From positions 1 through 39,058 of IMG/VR virus record IMGVR_UViG_3300014711_000003: 39,058 nucleotides of DNA, one strand, 5' to 3'. The position numbers and the translations under genes are program-made. The notes beneath the pieces were generated by a model that was not told the DNA's origin, ran no database searches, and saw nothing but the letters and a program-made list of their open reading frames with translations. Within the stretch, counting starts at the first letter, position 1. The number at the start of each line of letters is the position of its first letter. The stretch is from a virus. Shown one piece after another: positions 5,116-20,880 of this stretch.

Positions 5116-6642
5116 TTAACTTCCCATCCATGAGGTTGCAACCACGCTTCGATCACTGTACGTGCGGCGCTGCGTGGGTTCACGCGCCTCACGATGGGCC
5201 ACAGGATAGGCAAAAGTCACGCAAATAGCGTCTGCCGCGTCGGGTGACGCGAGGCCTCTGGCCTTCATGTCCTTTTTCGACTCCAAAAAGATGGTTCCCT
5301 TGGAGTCGGGCTTCATCATAGGCGAAATTAGATCAGTTTTTAAGAACCTGTCAAGCGGAATTGAGGCTGTTTTGAGCCAATCTTTCATCGCACCCCACAT
5401 TTCAGCCCGTTTGTTGCCGTACATGATGGGATTCTTGGCTTTATTGCCAAAATTGATGCCCTTGACCTTGTAGCGCTGCTCTTTCAAGCGGTCGACAATG
5501 CCAGCACCCAGCCCGCCCTCGTCAATCACGACTAAAGTTGGCTTGTATTCCTCTATGACGTCGATCACATGGCCAACCACGGTCATGGTGTCGTCTCCGC
5601 GATGGCGCCGGATCGAGACAATGTCCCGCCCCTGCCGTATGGCGATGACCGTCGCGTCCGCGCCGAAACGCGCTGGGTCAACGCCGATCACAATCGGGGC
5701 TGAGGCGTCTTTGTATTGAGGCCGTTTCATCGCATCGTCCACCAGATTGGCTGAGATGAACTGATCGTCGCCTTCAGACGGGAATTGACCGTAGACCTCA
5801 ACGTGCGCCTGTGATGACTCAGGCCCATATTCGTCAATGATCTGCTGATACACCTGCTTGTCGGTGCCCTCGACTGTGCGGGCGTCCACCACCTTGGTTG
5901 TCCAGAACTCGCGTTTGCTGTTAAAACACTCGTAAAAGTACCCCGTGTTGCGGCGCGGGTTGGAAAACGCCATCCAGAACCTGTTGGGCGTGTTTTCTGT
6001 GAAGAAGCCAGACGTGACGGCCCAGATGCTGTCGTCAATACCAGACGCCTCGTCAAAGATAACCAGCACACCGTCGAAGTTGTGCACACCCGCGTAAGCG
6101 TCGGGATTTTCCGCTGACCACAGCCGACCCTCGACGCCCCAATAACGCGTGCCTTTCTTAAGGTCACGCTCGACCAGTTCCGTGAGCCACTTGGCTGGCA
6201 TCAGTCGGGTCGCGGACACCTCAAACCAGTGACTGTTGAGCGACATCGCCAGCCACTTGGTAATCTCGGCCCATGTGACAGAGCGCAACTGCGATTCTGA
6301 GTTAGCTGAGATGATGGTCGTCGAGCCGATCCGCGTGGACAACATCCATATCGTGATCCATGACACTAGGGCCGACTTACCAATACCACGGCCTGACGAG
6401 ACAGCGTGGCGTAAGGTATCAAAGTCCAACTTACCTTGGTTAGCTTTGATATGCGCTGCAATGTCACTGAGGACTTCTCGCTGCCACTTACGTGGGCCTG
6501 AGAAGTGTTCCAATGGCGTGCCAGGTTGGCCCCATGGAAACGCAAACATCACAAACGCCAGCGGGTTATCCTTGATCGCTGGCGACCACAGCCGCGCCAT
6601 CAGTTCCTGTTCGTCTTCAGCGCTGTATATGGTCGATTGCAT
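5116..6642 (-). CDS. terL: Terminase large subunit (508 aa)
   Basis: DNA-packaging motor and nuclease. The ATPase domain shows Walker A SSGRGIGKSA (about residues 82-91) and Walker B VLVIFDEAS (192-200, DE catalytic). The RNase-H-like nuclease domain shows VIGVDPARFGADATV (D322), LVVIDEGGLGAGI (D374) and a C-terminal SPDAADAICV aspartate, the expected acidic triad. Length is normal. The start at 6642 overlaps the small-subunit gene by 26 nt, which indicates coupled translation. The Ser/Arg-rich tail after residue 480 probably contacts the portal. Confidence 0.95.
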   Translation of the reverse strand: MQSTIYSAEDEQELMARLWSPAIKDNPLAFVMFAFPWGQPGTPLEHFSGPRKWQREVLSDIAAHIKANQGKLDFDTLRHAVSSGRGIGKSALVSWITIWMLSTRIGSTTIISANSESQLRSVTWAEITKWLAMSLNSHWFEVSATRLMPAKWLTELVERDLKKGTRYWGVEGRLWSAENPDAYAGVHNFDGVLVIFDEASGIDDSIWAVTSGFFTENTPNRFWMAFSNPRRNTGYFYECFNSKREFWTTKVVDARTVEGTDKQVYQQIIDEYGPESSQAHVEVYGQFPSEGDDQFISANLVDDAMKRPQYKDASAPIVIGVDPARFGADATVIAIRQGRDIVSIRRHRGDDTMTVVGHVIDVIEEYKPTLVVIDEGGLGAGIVDRLKEQRYKVKGINFGNKAKNPIMYGNKRAEMWGAMKDWLKTASIPLDRFLKTDLISPMMKPDSKGTIFLESKKDMKARGLASPDAADAICVTFAYPVAHREAREPTQRRTYSDRSVVATSWMGS

Positions 6643-7054
6643 GCGTGGGTGTTTCTATTACATTGATGTCGGTCACGTCCAAAACTCTCTTTTGCGCCTC
6701 GGCCAGCGCGCCAGTGATGGAGATGCGCTGATCCACTTCGACAGATATGGCTTGCTTGGCCACCCAGCCGTGTTGATGTTTAAGGATTTCTAAGGCCGAC
6801 TTGGCGTCGCCGTTGAGCGCGGCTTGGTGCAGCACCTTGGCCATCTCAATCTCACCGTCTGCTTTGCCTTTTTGCGCGGCCATCTCAACGACGGGGTCAA
6901 GTTGCGTGAGTTGTCGGTATTCTTGGGGCAGCATGCCGGCGGCGAGCGCCAAAGCGTCGCCCTTGAGGCCTAGCTTGGCTGCGTCATACACCGCCTTCAA
7001 GCGCGACTCTGTCGCTTGCACCTTGCGCGGTGTGAATGGAATTGAATAGAACAT
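6617..7054 (-). CDS. Probable terminase small subunit (145 aa)
   Basis: First gene of the leftward late unit. Start chosen at ATG 7054 (MFYSIPFTPRKVQ) because GGAGA lies 5-6 nt upstream; an ATG seven codons earlier is within that site. The protein is helical, with a helix-turn-helix-like region (AKLGLKGDALALAAGMLPQEYRQL by position about 27-50, described not quoted in full), followed by AALNGDAKSALEILKHQHGW, a segment typical of small terminases that read host-like HTH motifs. It overlaps the large-subunit gene, and its place supports DNA recognition for packaging. Confidence 0.75.
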   Translation of the reverse strand: MFYSIPFTPRKVQATESRLKAVYDAAKLGLKGDALALAAGMLPQEYRQLTQLDPVVEMAAQKGKADGEIEMAKVLHQAALNGDAKSALEILKHQHGWVAKQAISVEVDQRISITGALAEAQKRVLDVTDINVIETPTHAIDHIQR

Positions 7055-7251
7055 AAATTCTCCATGCGTTTGCACGTGACCGCGAGTTTATATCAAAAAA
7101 TAAATTTAGGCCTGTTTGCCTTTTTTCAAAAAATAAAAAAATTGTTTGCAGACGCTCCGTTTTTGCTTGGCCCTTCCGCTCGGCCCTACCCCCTCCCCCT
7201 CAAGCCCAATCCCTTTTGGTCAGTGGCCACTAACTTCTAGGCCGTGGGTCA

Positions 7252-7576
7252 TGTGGACAATGTGGACAATGAGTTAGAAGTCGCATACCCAACGGAGTAC
7301 ATACCCCAACCAGTAACAGTTTGTGGACAATGTGGACAATCAGTTTTTAGGTTGTCCAACTTGTCCACAAGTTACGCACAGGCTGTGGATAACGAACTCC
7401 CGAGGGTATGAGTTATGCACAGGTTTTGGTCTTATATAAGACTTCAAACTGTGGACAACCAGCACTTGCACTGTGGACAACTTTTGCCAAGGGGTAAGTA
7501 AGCAAAACGCAAAAAACGGCTTAAAACGCGTTTAAATGCGTCGCCCATTTGTGGACAATGTGGACATTGTGGACAC
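7252..7576. repeat. DnaA-box-like 9-mer array
   Basis: Exact TGTGGACAA copies begin at 7252, 7261, 7322, 7331, 7450, 7472 and 7550, with the reverse form TTGTCCACA at 7361. Variants are TGTGGACAT at 7559 and TGTGGACAC at 7568. A perfect DnaA box occurs at 7384 (TGTGGATAA, the reverse of TTATCCACA), with TTATGCACA at 7413 and TTACGCACA at 7372. Several copies abut head-to-tail with a 9-bp period. TTGTCCACA differs from the consensus TTATCCACA at one base. Confidence 0.85.
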
Positions 7577-7633
7577 CCTTTTTAAATTGGTGGCGGATGA
7601 GGCGTCAACTTACGTTGACACCCCACCCAATAG

Positions 7634-7654
7634 CTACCTTACACCTACCTTACA
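7634..7654. repeat. Two direct repeats, 11-bp period
   Basis: CTACCTTACA occurs at 7634-7643 and again at 7645-7654, one base apart, at the edge of the second AT-rich tract of the origin region. About one helical turn apart, it could be a binding site. No protein is assigned. Confidence 0.45.
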
Positions 7655-7687
7655 TTATTTTATTTAACTTTAGTTGTTCTAAATATA

Positions 7688-7705
7688 TTATCCACATTGT
7701 CCACA
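7688..7705 (+). repeat. Perfect DnaA box plus adjoining variant
   Basis: TTATCCACA (7688-7696), the consensus DnaA box, is followed directly by TTGTCCACA (7697-7705). The pair lies at the right edge of an AT-rich stretch that could be the unwinding element. Orientation is opposite to most boxes in the 7252-7576 array. Confidence 0.8.
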
Positions 7706-7815: not shown

Positions 7816-7838
7816 CGACACTTTTTTGCAAAAAGGTG

Positions 7839-7866
7839 TTGACAACGTAAGAAAATCCCTTACAAT
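7839..7866 (+). promoter_or_regulatory. Early sigma70-type promoter
   Basis: A perfect -35 TTGACA (7839-7844) and a -10 TACAAT (7861-7866) are 16 nt apart, which places transcription start near 7873. The spacer and -10 carry a small dyad, GTAAG (7847-7851) and CTTAC (7859-7863), that could be an operator. It faces the run of 13 small rightward genes and indicates early transcription by host RNA polymerase. Confidence 0.85.
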
Positions 7867-10576: not shown

Positions 10577-10814
10577 ACGAGATAAATATTGGCGTTCGTT
10601 CGCCAACATACGCGCCAAGGATATTGAACTCGAAATATTCAACGGCCTCGTCCTCGGTCATCTCACGCGCCAAGATTTCGATAATCTTGGGCGTGCTGTA
10701 CGCCACCACAGCCTCCATGCCTATGCGCTCGGCTACGCCAAGGATCGCGTCGTCAAAGCCATCGGCAAACAGCAGGCCGTCATGGTATGCGCTAAGTTCT
10801 TCGCGGATGTTCAT
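10575..10814 (-). CDS. Small acidic phage protein (79 aa)
   Basis: Last gene of the leftward replication unit; its ATG overlaps the primase-helicase stop (ATGA at 10814-10811). The sequence MNIREELSAYHDGLLFADG, then MTEDEAVEYFEFN and ILGAYVGERTPIFI, resembles a conserved small phage protein often found with replication genes, function unknown. Acidic, probably alpha/beta. Its stop lies in the T-run of the convergent terminator. Confidence 0.78.
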   Translation of the reverse strand: MNIREELSAYHDGLLFADGFDDAILGVAERIGMEAVVAYSTPKIIEILAREMTEDEAVEYFEFNILGAYVGERTPIFIS

Positions 10815-13105
10815 TTGACTAACCTCACAGATTGGGGGGCGGGGACATCTTCGACAAGGCGACGCAATTCTGACTTGCTCATGTCACGCAACTCAGGCGC
10901 GCAGAAAATGTGTTTCTTGGTGTCAAACTCGCGGGACTTCAGACGCCCCATGTCAATCCATCCCGCCTCTTTGAGCGCGTGCAACAGCGCAGGCTGTGGC
11001 ACCTTCACGCCACTAGGTGCTGCCCCTGCAAGGCGATCGCACAGCGCATGGAAGGGGGACGCCACCGCGCCTTTTGAGAACTCGCCCAGACGCCCGCGCA
11101 TGAGTTCCACCAAGTACGACTCGGCCATGCTCATGCCATGCTCAACAAGATTCATCTTGAACTCGGTCATCATGGGCGTTGCACCTGCGTTGAACGCTGA
11201 CACATCACGCGACGCAAGCCAGCCACCAATAGACGCAAAGCCCCCCGACTTGTACCACTTCCACATCTTCTCAGCAGACGCAGGCGACATCCGAGGCGCG
11301 TGTGACCAGACGCAAAACCACCTGCGGTCTTGCGAGTCCAAGGAGATCGGCACAGGGTCATTGGAGAACGCCAACACAAACACGCGGTTCGCCATTTGGT
11401 AGGGATGCAGACCCTTGCGGTTGACTGTCAGCATCTCAGGCGGGGCGGCAATGATGGGCTTGAGTTTGTTGGCCAAGGCGCGACGCTCTTTTGCGTCAGG
11501 TTCTTTGAGTTCGTTCAGGATCAGAATTTCAGACTCAAGGGCGTAACCAAACTGCGACGACATGGTGTCGTTGTCGAGCAGGCCTCGGTTCTTGAGGTGT
11601 TCACCACAAACTGCCCAGATGAAGGGTGCCCACATGGTGTCCTTGCCTGAGCCTTGGTCGCCACCATGAAGGATCGCGTGGTTAATCTTGACCTCGGGGT
11701 GTTGCACCTTGAAGGCCATGACGTCAAAGATGTGATTTAACTCAGCCTCGTCAGGCACAAGTGTTCTGCAATGCTCAAGCCAAGGCGCCACGTCACCGCC
11801 ATGCGTGTATGCAGGCCGTGCATCGCGCCAGCGGTTGCCATACAGGTCGCCATCACGCGCCACGATGACCGACTCACCTGCGGCATAGGTGATGCCCACC
11901 AGTGCTTTCGCGCCATTGGCTTGGCGGTTCTCGTCAAAGCACACAGACGCCTCGATCTTGGGGTTCTTGCCGTGGATGGACTTGCAGGAAATGTGACGAA
12001 ACAGCGCGTTGAAGGTCGAGCGCGACACCTCGCGTCTGTCTTGCATATCAAAATAAGACTCATCGTCTTGGATGTACGCAAAGCGTTCATACCACTGCGC
12101 TTTCTCAACGCGGCCTAACTCCTTGCGCTCAACCTCAGCGATCACGCTGTTGGCGTCGTCTGTGAACATATCGGACGGCGTGAGTTTGGACAGCGCAGAC
12201 TCCATGGCCATGGCGAGCAACTCGTCACGCAGGCCTGGAGCGTGCTTCGGGCCACCATTGTCTGACACCCACTTGAGGAACACGCCTGAGTCGAGTTCAA
12301 GGCAGTGGCTGTGCAGGCAGCAATACGCACGATTGGCGGGCATATAGCGGCCCTCGGGGTTGCCGTCGGTATGCTCGGCTGAGTTGGGGCAGATCACGCC
12401 AGCCCAGCCCTCAGCGTTCGGTTTGGACAACAGCAAACCCTGACCAGACAGCCACGCCATCACGTCGTCAGCGCCGTCATCTGACAGACGGATCGGGCGC
12501 ACACCAACTGAGTCAGCAGGCGCGGGCACGACACCAAGGGCGGTGTAGATCTGCTCAAGTGTGAAGTCACGCTCGGGATGAAACTCCACCAGCTTGGCGG
12601 CAAAGTTGTTGCGGTTGGGTTTGAGGTTGATCGAGTCAGGCAGACGGAAGTTGCGCACGGCGTTAATCGCGCCAGAATCGGTGAAGCCTGCGTCAGCGAT
12701 GGCTTTGATGGCCGCGGAAAAATCGGCCTTTGTAGGCTGTTCTGAGAAGGCGTAGCCCCATTGAAACGAACCCTCGGACGTCTCCATCTTCCAAGTGGGT
12801 TCTAGCGGCGGTATCTTGGCCTTTGTGCCCACGTCGTCAAGCACCATGACCAACACATACTCACAGTTGGCCGCACTGGCGCTGACGTGGCCATCCTTGA
12901 AGCGGTCGATGATGAACGACGCGGTGTTGCCATACCACGCGCCCTCTTTCATGCGAGTCGTGGGCAGATAAGCCGGCCATGTGCATTTGATCGCGCCGTC
13001 TGCGTGGAACTGCATCTGGCCGTCTTTGAGTTGCGGCTTTTGACGCACCACAAGCGCCGTCTCACCCTCGGGCGCCAAGGAAATTAAAAAATCAAGAAAA
13101 TTCAT
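10811..13105 (-). CDS. Primase-helicase, PrimPol-like plus DUF5906-type ATPase (764 aa)
   Basis: Likely primes and unwinds DNA at the fork. The N-terminal part has VLVMVLDDVGTK (about 84-95) and WKMETSEGSFQWGYAF, the pattern of RepB/PrimPol-like primases whose acidic pair binds metal. A Cys/His cluster follows (C239, H245, C262, H265, C268), probably a zinc site. The C-terminal ATPase has Walker A GGDQGSGKDT (481-490), Walker B-like EILILNELKE (526-535) and a sensor region VFVLAFSNDPVPIS, as in DUF5906 superfamily 3 helicases. Its start overlaps the polymerase stop (ATGA). Domain boundaries are read by eye. Confidence 0.85.
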   Translation of the reverse strand: MNFLDFLISLAPEGETALVVRQKPQLKDGQMQFHADGAIKCTWPAYLPTTRMKEGAWYGNTASFIIDRFKDGHVSASAANCEYVLVMVLDDVGTKAKIPPLEPTWKMETSEGSFQWGYAFSEQPTKADFSAAIKAIADAGFTDSGAINAVRNFRLPDSINLKPNRNNFAAKLVEFHPERDFTLEQIYTALGVVPAPADSVGVRPIRLSDDGADDVMAWLSGQGLLLSKPNAEGWAGVICPNSAEHTDGNPEGRYMPANRAYCCLHSHCLELDSGVFLKWVSDNGGPKHAPGLRDELLAMAMESALSKLTPSDMFTDDANSVIAEVERKELGRVEKAQWYERFAYIQDDESYFDMQDRREVSRSTFNALFRHISCKSIHGKNPKIEASVCFDENRQANGAKALVGITYAAGESVIVARDGDLYGNRWRDARPAYTHGGDVAPWLEHCRTLVPDEAELNHIFDVMAFKVQHPEVKINHAILHGGDQGSGKDTMWAPFIWAVCGEHLKNRGLLDNDTMSSQFGYALESEILILNELKEPDAKERRALANKLKPIIAAPPEMLTVNRKGLHPYQMANRVFVLAFSNDPVPISLDSQDRRWFCVWSHAPRMSPASAEKMWKWYKSGGFASIGGWLASRDVSAFNAGATPMMTEFKMNLVEHGMSMAESYLVELMRGRLGEFSKGAVASPFHALCDRLAGAAPSGVKVPQPALLHALKEAGWIDMGRLKSREFDTKKHIFCAPELRDMSKSELRRLVEDVPAPQSVRLVK

Positions 13106-15003
13106 TTGCCATACCTTTTCATAGTTTCAACTTCAGCGTTGAGCGGCAAGCCTTCGGCCCACGCTGGCGCTGTACACATCACACGTTTTAGTTCTTCAGC
13201 CGCGCCCTCGCGGTCAGTCTCAAGCACGATCTCGTCATGCACATGCAGCACGACGTCATCGAGTTGTCTGAGGGAATGACGCAGTAGATCATTGGCGACC
13301 GCCTGCGTCACATTCTCACACGCCAAGCCTTTCCAGAGACGCGCGCGTGGCCATTCTTTTGCATCTTGCGCGGGCTTCCATGCCGCTTTGGCATAAGTCA
13401 CGCCCTCCGATTCCAATTTGGCATAGGGGTAGCACAAAATCCTGCCCGATGGGAGCGCATACCACAGGTGTTGACCATCAAACAAATATGTGATACGGCC
13501 AGCCTTGAACTCACGCCCCTTGTTTCTCATTGCTCGGGTGTACGATTCCTCAAGCGCAGACCAATAAGGTACAGCCCATGGGTTAGCCCGACGCCAGCCG
13601 TCAACCATTCGCTTGGCGACGGGTTCAGGTAAGCTAATACCATAAGCGCGGCCCATAGCGGCAAAAGCGCCAACGCCTCCGGCAAAGCCACAAGCCAACT
13701 CTTGAACCTTGCCAATCTGTCGTTGATCTTTGGTAACGTCATCGACGCGGACGTTAAACGTCGCTGCTGCGTTAACTTTGTAGACGTCTTCACCAGTTCT
13801 GAATAGTTCCAGTTTGTCGTCCCCACGGCCAGACAGCCACGGGTTAACGCGGGCTTCGATGGCCGCCCAATCGGCAACGACAAGGTGCTTGCCTGCGGCT
13901 GGGATAAGGGCGGGTCTGAGCATGCCTTTGAGTACATCGGTAACGCGCTTTCCATACCGAGGCACGATTGCGTGTCCTCTGACCATGGCATGCCGAACTT
14001 CTTCGGGTTCGTCAGCGCATTTGCGCGTAAAGTTATGAACTTGTGCGCCATAGCTGCTTGCTCGACCTGTTGCCGAGCCTCCAGCAAATACGAACGCTCC
14101 GCGTACCCGCGCATCCTCCTCATCTGCCAGACTGGCGAGTCGATTGAATTTCGCCACGGAGGATGCCCAGAGGTCGTCTGCGCATTGGATAACTTCTTGG
14201 ACATCGGCTGGGACTTCATCGGGGTTCTCCATCAGTAAAAGGTTTGCACGAACTGTCTTGTCAATCGAATACTTGCCGTCTTTCTCCATCAGCTTCTTGG
14301 CCTCTGGCCCGACGCGCTCAAGCACCCACTCGCGCATGCGTGGGGAACGCACTGACGCGATAGCGCCCTGCGTGACTTCTTGCACGATCTGTTCGATCTC
14401 AATGAGTTCGTCTGAGGCGTACTTCACGGCGGCGTGGCACAGCGGCACGTCGACCAACACGCCGCGGTCGTTGATCTTTTCATTGACGTGATAGTCGGCC
14501 AACTCATCAGCAGACAAGTCACGCATGGCCTTGCTGATCGCACGCATGGCGCGCACGTCCTGCTCACAATACTGGATCATCTCGGCCATGAGTTCAGGCG
14601 AGTCTTTGAATGGCGGCACGCACATCAGGCGAATGAGTTGCGCGCCGCGGTGGTCTTTCTTCATGGACGCGCCAGCAAAGCGGCCAACGTCCTCCAGACT
14701 GCCAGGCGCGCAGTTGGCGCGGGCTTGCGTGGCGGTGCAGTAGAACTGTTCCAACTTGAAGTTAATCTGCAACACGTACCAAAAAATCAAGCGCTCAAAC
14801 GCCGCGTTGTGCGCACGGATCTGGCCTGTGTAGTTGCGCACACGTTCGGGGAAGGGTTGGTCGGGTGTCCATGTCACCACTTCCTCATCATCAAAAGCGT
14901 AGGACATGCAGAGGACTTCCGTCGACATATCTTGAGCATAGTTGTACACGCCCTTGGCGCGTAGGTCGCACTTACTGCGCGTCTCAAAATCTAACCAAAG
15001 CAT
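13102..15003 (-). CDS. DNA polymerase, family A, with 3'-5' exonuclease (633 aa)
   Basis: Phage replicative polymerase. The exonuclease domain shows LDFETRS (D5, E7), RAHNAAFE (about 63-70, with E in place of the usual D after F) and YCEQDV (Y145, D149). The polymerase domain shows GRASSYGAQVHN, motif A VVADWAAIEAR (D378), motif B around RQIGKVQELACGFAGG, and motif C HVHDEIVLE (H589, D590, E591). No 5' nuclease domain is present, as in T7-type enzymes. The start shares bases with the upstream stop (TAATG). All catalytic motifs of synthesis are intact. Confidence 0.93.
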   Translation of the reverse strand: MLWLDFETRSKCDLRAKGVYNYAQDMSTEVLCMSYAFDDEEVVTWTPDQPFPERVRNYTGQIRAHNAAFERLIFWYVLQINFKLEQFYCTATQARANCAPGSLEDVGRFAGASMKKDHRGAQLIRLMCVPPFKDSPELMAEMIQYCEQDVRAMRAISKAMRDLSADELADYHVNEKINDRGVLVDVPLCHAAVKYASDELIEIEQIVQEVTQGAIASVRSPRMREWVLERVGPEAKKLMEKDGKYSIDKTVRANLLLMENPDEVPADVQEVIQCADDLWASSVAKFNRLASLADEEDARVRGAFVFAGGSATGRASSYGAQVHNFTRKCADEPEEVRHAMVRGHAIVPRYGKRVTDVLKGMLRPALIPAAGKHLVVADWAAIEARVNPWLSGRGDDKLELFRTGEDVYKVNAAATFNVRVDDVTKDQRQIGKVQELACGFAGGVGAFAAMGRAYGISLPEPVAKRMVDGWRRANPWAVPYWSALEESYTRAMRNKGREFKAGRITYLFDGQHLWYALPSGRILCYPYAKLESEGVTYAKAAWKPAQDAKEWPRARLWKGLACENVTQAVANDLLRHSLRQLDDVVLHVHDEIVLETDREGAAEELKRVMCTAPAWAEGLPLNAEVETMKRYGK

Positions 15004-20418: not shown

Positions 20419-20880
20419 GGCGCGCTCGTCTATGCGGCGGTTTTGCAATCCCTTGAGGACTTTGCCGCCCGCCATGCAATACTTCAGGAGTTCTTCGGCG
20501 GCGCCTTCTTTGTCGCCCCGAAGAACTTTCTGACGAAGCGTCGAACGCTGGAGTGTTCCCAGACCGACGTTAAAACTAAAAGACACAAGAGCGTCAAACA
20601 TCCCTTGTGTAAGAGGAGCAGGACAGAAGCGCTCCACTCCACGTTCAAACCGATCAAGGTCGCGTCTAAGAATCCCATCTACTTCTTCTTTGGTAAACGT
20701 CCGATTGTCTTCAGGATGAAGCGCGTAAGCGCCCCTTTCAGGTAATAGTATTTTGATTTGATCAGGATAAAGAACATGCCCGACTCCTATTGTCCACAGC
20801 TTTGCTGGGCACTGGTAAGGTTTAAATCGCACACCCTCATGGTGCTTGATCATCTCAATGGCTTTGGGGCTGACGTTCAT
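20404..20880 (-). CDS. Endolysin, GH24 lysozyme (158 aa)
   Basis: Cuts peptidoglycan at the end of infection. The T4/P22-type muramidase pattern is clear: E15 (KHHEG), C24 at E+9 and T30 at E+15 (WTIGVGH), that is E-8aa-C-5aa-T, the cysteine form of the E-D/C-T site. Later blocks FDALVSFSFNVG and LLKYCMAGGKVLKGLQNRR match GH24. No signal or SAR segment is present, so a holin must release it. The start overlaps the upstream stop (ATGA). Last gene of the leftward late unit. Confidence 0.92.
   Translation of the reverse strand: MNVSPKAIEMIKHHEGVRFKPYQCPAKLWTIGVGHVLYPDQIKILLPERGAYALHPEDNRTFTKEEVDGILRRDLDRFERGVERFCPAPLTQGMFDALVSFSFNVGLGTLQRSTLRQKVLRGDKEGAAEELLKYCMAGGKVLKGLQNRRIDERALFLS

Follow-up and report, generated by a model that had tools for sequence, protein, structure and literature searches.

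The type 1 repeats of P4 are 8 bp long (GGTGAACA/TGTTCACC), are spaced 9-11 bp apart, occur in both orientations in ori and crr, and are read by the P4 alpha protein. The helicases SaPI Rep and SCCmec Cch2 bind iterons via their C-terminal domains (PMC7581432). The DNA-binding domain of PLE RepA covaries with the origin, the two are functional only as cognate pairs, and the origins are attacked by an origin-directed nuclease (PMC8263062). The NrS-1 polymerase needs an 8-nucleotide template recognition sequence, which is present in two copies in the NrS-1 genome (PMC7102993).

The stretch of DNA analyzed here, referred to as the window, is a virus record from IMG/VR and comprises 39,058 bases. 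Among its gene products are a P22-type portal, a large terminase subunit (TerL), a GroES-like protein, a DUF5906 primase-helicase, a family A polymerase, a PD-(D/E)XK exonuclease, and a SNF2-type helicase. Among named genomes, the nearest are those of the uncultured phages MW202483 (Manatee Spring; TerL 79%) and DSL-LC05 (Dishui Lake; TerL 70%), and at least 599 stretches of viral contigs encode relatives of the TerL. Bacterial bins with relatives of the primase are mostly from freshwater and include several Betaproteobacteria, Rhodoferax among them; such bins can hold stray phage contigs. An array of 9-bp iterons in the window is very likely the replication origin of the phage, bound by the phage's own primase-helicase.

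Nine exact copies of TTGTCCACA (at 7252, 7261, 7322, 7331, 7361, 7450, 7472, 7550, and 7697) and two copies of TTATCCACA (at 7384 and 7688) are located in positions 7252-7705, in an intergenic region between divergent flanking genes (Table 1). None of 100 dinucleotide shuffles of the whole window gave 12 matches (mean 0.65, maximum 3), and the dense array of 9-mers described in the initial annotation is therefore real. A search of the whole window for a second, crr-like array found only this one cluster, and the sole further copy of the word is at 20790. The reported 9-bp period is borne out by one-mismatch copies at 7559 and 7568, which form a head-to-tail triple with the copy at 7550. In relatives, the distance between same-orientation neighbors is exactly 9 bp in 108 cases for TGTCCACA and 9 bp in 176 for TGACCCA; for the TGAC[CT]CAC type it is 10 bp in 12 cases. 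The AT-rich tracts (~7085-7145 and ~7650-7690) and divergent units noted previously are also present, with an open reading frame (ORF) resembling that of the small terminase subunit (TerS) on the left and early ORFs on the right. The iterons on either side of the tract at 7650-7690 point in opposite directions. The GC skew of the window, a check proposed in the initial annotation, does not have a clear switch at the array. A blastn search with the intergenic DNA against phage and plasmid sequences gave no match.

Table 1 Features of the array, its flanks, and the replication module in the window
Feature	Position	Strand	Remarks
Probable terminase small subunit, left of array	6617..7054	-	Adjoins TerL; conserved in relatives; L199 counterpart annotated TerS
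Two head-to-tail iterons TTGTCCACA	7252..7269	-	Exact matches
Two head-to-tail iterons TTGTCCACA	7322..7339	-	Exact matches
Single iteron TTGTCCACA, reverse orientation	7361..7369	+	Exact match
Dyad GTTACGCACAGGCTGTGGATAAC with TTATCCACA DnaA-type box (7384-7392, minus strand)	7371..7393	.	
DnaA-box-like site TTATGCACA	7413..7421	+	
Iteron TTGTCCACA	7450..7458	-	Exact match
Iteron TTGTCCACA	7472..7480	-	Exact match
Three head-to-tail iterons (one exact, two with one mismatch)	7550..7576	-	
AT-rich tract, candidate DNA unwinding element	7650..7690	.	Best 40 bp 88% AT
Head-to-tail iterons TTATCCACA TTGTCCACA, orientation opposite to most	7688..7705	+	
Early promoter TTGACA-16-TACAAT	7839..7866	+	Small early ORFs downstream, right of array
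Primase-helicase (DUF5906), 764 aa, proposed origin-binding initiator	10811..13105	-	Pfam PF19263 E 8e-13; PHROG DNA primase E 2.3e-16
C-terminal winged-helix domain, residues 635-764	10814..11203	-	AlphaFold2, mean pLDDT 78.6, several core blocks >90
Wing, residues 719-735 MGRLKSREFDTKKHIFC	10901..10951	-	K723, R725, and D728 covary with word
Family A DNA polymerase, same replication module	13102..15003	-	Pfam DNA_pol_A E 4.3e-18; PHROG 17 E 1.1e-90

The probable TerS gene is likely to start with the ATG at 7054, and the TerL gene then occupies 5116-6642. On the other side of the array, the -35 box of the early promoter shares positions with a one-mismatch iteron (7837-7845), and the initiator could therefore also repress early transcription. 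Several further elements were observed in the flanks. A second repeat family, which is palindromic, adjoins TerS: TTAGTGGCCACTAA is represented once in the window (~7223-7240) and by many copies in the L164 clade, the family lies upstream of TerS in the related genomes L164, L018, L162, and L174, and its form in L198 (10200-10600) is TGTTTACATAAACA. These repeats are possibly a packaging or repressor site. At ~7130-7205, next to TerS, an A/T run accompanies the C-rich element GGCCCTTCCGCTCGGCCCTACCCCCTCCCCC; this element is alike in relatives regardless of their iteron word and is a candidate cos/pac site or terminator. Positions 7083-7379 of L198 (MW202483) encode a 98-residue protein with a helix-turn-helix domain of the Bac_DnaA_C type (E 1.1e-17); this domain was found in none of the small early ORFs of the window tested.

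The word of the array differs among related phages. Freshwater phages with 92-95% identical TerL often lack TTGTCCACA and have arrays of other words at the same place. The words in close relatives are ATGACCCAA and ATGACTCACA, with the period kept at 9-10 bp, and TGTG[AG]GTCAT (ATGA[CT][TC]CACA on the other strand), with a 10-bp period. More distant relatives have ATAGCCAACA, TTGCCTACA, or TTGTCCATA, and their words include ATAGCC[CA]ACA, TTGCC[CT]ACA, and CACTACCAA. To call the words, a fixed set of pattern families was matched in the interval after the primase gene. A quick k-mer count in Vibrio phage relatives (27-29% identity) gave no clear 9-bp array. The arrays share a plan in which repeats of opposite orientation flank an AT-rich tract. 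Around the AT-richest 40 bp, counted in the two best-sampled word types, orientations are 95:24 on the left and 189:45, the opposite way, on the right for the word type of the window, and 95:7 and 268:54, again opposite, for the ATGACCCAA type. The third base of the TGTCCACA-type word is G in 305 copies, A in 20, and C or T in none. TTATCCACA can therefore be a natural iteron variant. The G at position 3 was previously regarded as a consistent variant that might match either a host DnaA preference or a phage protein; its consistency and the possible match to a phage protein stand, but not host DnaA as the main reader.

No phage initiator was recognized in the initial annotation, yet the primase-helicase is a candidate. 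Its helicase part matches the helicase domain of the NrS-1 polymerase (PDB 6k9c/6k9e, E 2e-11). In the AlphaFold2 model of residues 635-764, helices 24-36, 51-61, and 70-79 (model numbering) are followed by strands 83-88 and 97-101. In full-length numbering, the residues that vary among relatives lie in the hairpin 717-735, the predicted wing of the winged helix, whereas the candidate recognition helix 704-713 varies little. The best match in a fold search with the C-terminal model had a Z of 6.2, and all matches were generic winged helices; the absence of the P4 origin-binding domain from the list is not probative. The model of the full-length primase-helicase is poor and of too low quality for use.

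Within the close clade, TerL, TerS (84-90% identity), and polymerase (88-94%) are equally similar whichever word the phages carry. In contrast, the identity of the primase to that of the window is 89-93% in phages with TTGTCCACA, 84-86% in those with ATGACCCAA, and 68-72% in those with TGTG[AG]GTCAT. In a second clade (L008, L180), the polymerase of which is ~70% identical, primase type and word are still shared, and its phages with TTGTCCACA or TTGGGTCA have primases that are 77-79% identical. For the analysis of covariation, a first set of 110 distinct loci was collected, each with an array and the C-terminal part of the primase, from metagenome contigs that may overlap or be chimeric. On a tree calculated from primase residues 1-690, without the C-terminus, the TGTCCACA type changes at least 10-14 times, and the wing pattern KS[RS]..D is concordant with the word in 7-8 of nine independent pairs and opposite in none; tree and pair counts rest on FastTree. 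A scan of all columns in the 110 loci, with no region chosen beforehand, ranked residues 728, 723, 741, and 725 as the top four (phi 0.96 to 0.75). The set was enlarged by 117 new loci, and 180 of the resulting 227 have a clear top word. The scan of these 180 loci, with 15 independent pairs, gave 11.0 same and 0.2 opposite changes for 728 (D), and 10.6 and 0 for 723 (K). For the word TGACCCA[AT], residues 723A, 722V, and 719L each agree in 5/5, whereas the wing did not stand out in the column scan for the words TGAC[CT]CAC and AGCCAAC.

The same column scan of TerS and the common early gene families found nothing comparable to the primase wing. The maximum phi is 0.32 for TerS columns and 0.42 for early gene families between primase and array; one early family, antisense to terminase, reaches 0.92 from only two independent pairs. 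For a held-out test, the rule derived from the first set was applied unchanged to new contigs, after removal of primases with the last 200 residues already seen. TGTCCACA is the top word at 12 of the 21 held-out loci with KSR..D wings and at 3 of the 95 with other wings (p 1.5e-8). The nine misses comprise four one-base neighbors (TGCCCACA), four other words, and one locus without a clear word. TGAC[CT]CAC occurs with 17/22 LLKSR wings and 14/94 others (p 3.3e-8), and the held-out set includes zero new loci of the ATGACCCAA type. The substitution R725S (wing KSSLHD) occurs at five loci, four of them new; all five have TGTCCATA and none TGTCCACA, and in all five it accompanies the change from TTGTCCACA to TTGTCCATA. 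Two further pairs of wing and word were noted in distant relatives (L362 and L407): SREYQNKKQ with TGACCACA, and an LSSREFQ-type wing with TGCCGACA. What is observed directly is the array with its conserved layout, and that its word covaries with wing residues. The word follows the primase-helicase, and within it a few residues of the wing, rather than TerS, TerL, the polymerase, or the small early genes.

Multiple short direct repeats lie beside an AT-rich region in the window, as in iteron origins of the SaPI Rep/Cch2 type. From the conserved plan of the array and its covariation with the wing, the earlier reading of the region as origin-like appears to hold, and we infer that the iterons are bound, that the strands open there, and that the region is active as an origin. 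The primase-helicase would bind the iterons as double-stranded DNA with its C-terminal winged helix. The oppositely oriented groups of iterons flanking the AT-rich tract would position two helicase rings, which would open the tract and unwind the DNA outwards. The primase would then start synthesis, and the family A polymerase of the phage would copy the DNA. It is conceivable, though less likely than not, that the lineage repeatedly changes the "password" of its origin, with word and wing residues switching together by recombination and point change; that the wing, not the recognition helix, reads a natural recognition code; and that the switching is driven by incompatibility of co-infecting phages or by origin-directed attack, as for Odn against PLE.

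Sites resembling genuine DnaA boxes accompany the iterons in part of the lineage. TTATCCACAG/TTATGCACAG sites are located inside the array of the window and about five relatives, and a small role of DnaA is therefore possible. Dyads of the kind GTTATSCACAGGCTGTGGATAAC and further TTATGCACAG sites occur in the same phages. Counterparts of the dyad and adjacent sites (7371-7421) are present in L202, L014, L214, L216, and L009, and in none of the other word types. The dyad at 7371-7393 may be an accessory DnaA site or consist of variant iterons, and, judging by their sequences, the sites at 7371-7421 may be true host DnaA sites.

It is highly improbable that the array is a cluster of DnaA boxes serving either to recruit host DnaA to replicate the phage or to titrate it away from the host origin, the main function considered in the initial annotation. 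TTGTCCACA is a DnaA box of some high-GC actinobacteria, and the exact TTATCCACA boxes and DnaA-type dyad of the window and about five close relatives agree with such a function. However, sister phages have other words in the same layout, and the word covaries with a phage protein. TTATCCACA is present in 13/45 arrays of the window's word type, but in 0/40 ATGACCCAA and 0/9 TGACTCAC-type arrays; boxes of this type are thus not kept in the homologous regions of relatives, as they would be in a bacterial oriC, and are at most a lineage-specific addition. A scan of 2.9 million viral contigs for the 18-bp tandem alone found at least 119 stretches, and 108 of the 119 among the matches listed encode relatives of the window phage's proteins. 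The tandem is nearly confined to this phage group, whereas wider occurrence would be expected of a generic host DnaA site. Host DnaA as the main reader is rejected by the word switching, and the resemblance to DnaA boxes is mostly coincidental, owing to the word that this lineage uses. A packaging site (pac/cos) read by TerS would explain why the array directly adjoins the probable TerS gene, but TerS does not track the word: it is similarly conserved across phages with different words, and its columns stay at the low phi given above. The packaging function was rejected and is extremely unlikely.

The position between divergent units and the iteron variant overlapping the early -35 box would fit an operator array from which another DNA-binding protein of the phage, either a repressor or a small protein of the early region, controls the divergent promoters. 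Nevertheless, the early families fall far below the primase wing in the column scan, the family with the high phi has only two independent pairs and lies antisense to terminase, and the small early ORFs of the window have no significant Pfam match. The small early ORFs were rejected as readers on these grounds, and an operator function is very unlikely. There is a similarly slight chance of plain linkage, in which array and primase 3' end belong to one recombination block and correlate without contact. The 3' end is indeed the part of the gene closest to the array; however, the intervening genes and the array-bordering TerS do not correlate with the word, the correlation peaks at residues 723 and 728 and is mostly weaker at those closer to the array, and R725S is repeatedly matched by a one-base change of the word. 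The words could also be single-stranded sites for template recognition or priming by the N-terminal primase-polymerase domain instead of duplex iterons. The relationship of the helicase part to the NrS-1 polymerase, with its required 8-nucleotide template sequence (PMC7102993), and the priming of SCCmec CCPol-MP at iterons (PMC7581432) are in favor of this function, but the covarying residues belong to the C-terminal winged helix rather than to the N-terminal domain, which makes it quite improbable.

The proposed iteron origin, read by the phage primase-helicase, corrects a tempting annotation, since DnaA-like boxes in a phage do not necessarily indicate a role of DnaA, and provides a probable initiator for an abundant group of uncultured freshwater podoviruses. 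The group also offers hundreds of initiator-origin pairs from nature, in which a word of 9-10 bp is associated with two to five residues. The recognition code of the winged helix and the evolution of origin specificity are therefore directly testable.

The proposed origin resembles the described systems to different extents. A self-loading (primase-)helicase that uses its C-terminal domain on short direct repeats of the origin is known from SaPI Rep and Cch2 (PMC7581432) and is proposed here. In contrast to those elements, the origin in the window is ~3 kb from the initiator gene and has at least nine iterons of 9 bp around an AT tract, the virus has its own family A polymerase, and the word switches between close relatives. 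Like the P4 alpha system, that of the window combines a primase-helicase with short repeats in both orientations; however, there is no second cis array (crr), and membership in the P4 alpha family was rejected because sequence kinship was not found with either the whole protein or the C-terminus (hhalign probability <1%). A relation of the primase C-terminus to P4 alpha in fold only is possible. The primase-helicase belongs with the NrS-1 primase-polymerase in having a related helicase domain fused behind a primase, but NrS-1 has two copies of its 8-nucleotide sequence (PMC7102993), whereas the window has an iteron array. The 9-mer boxes beside an AT-rich tract resemble a bacterial oriC, from which the phage group differs in that the word varies among relatives and follows a phage protein. 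The RepA of Vibrio cholerae PLE belongs to the RepA_N family and is associated with ~30-bp iterons and two replicon types, whereas the phages described here use many words.
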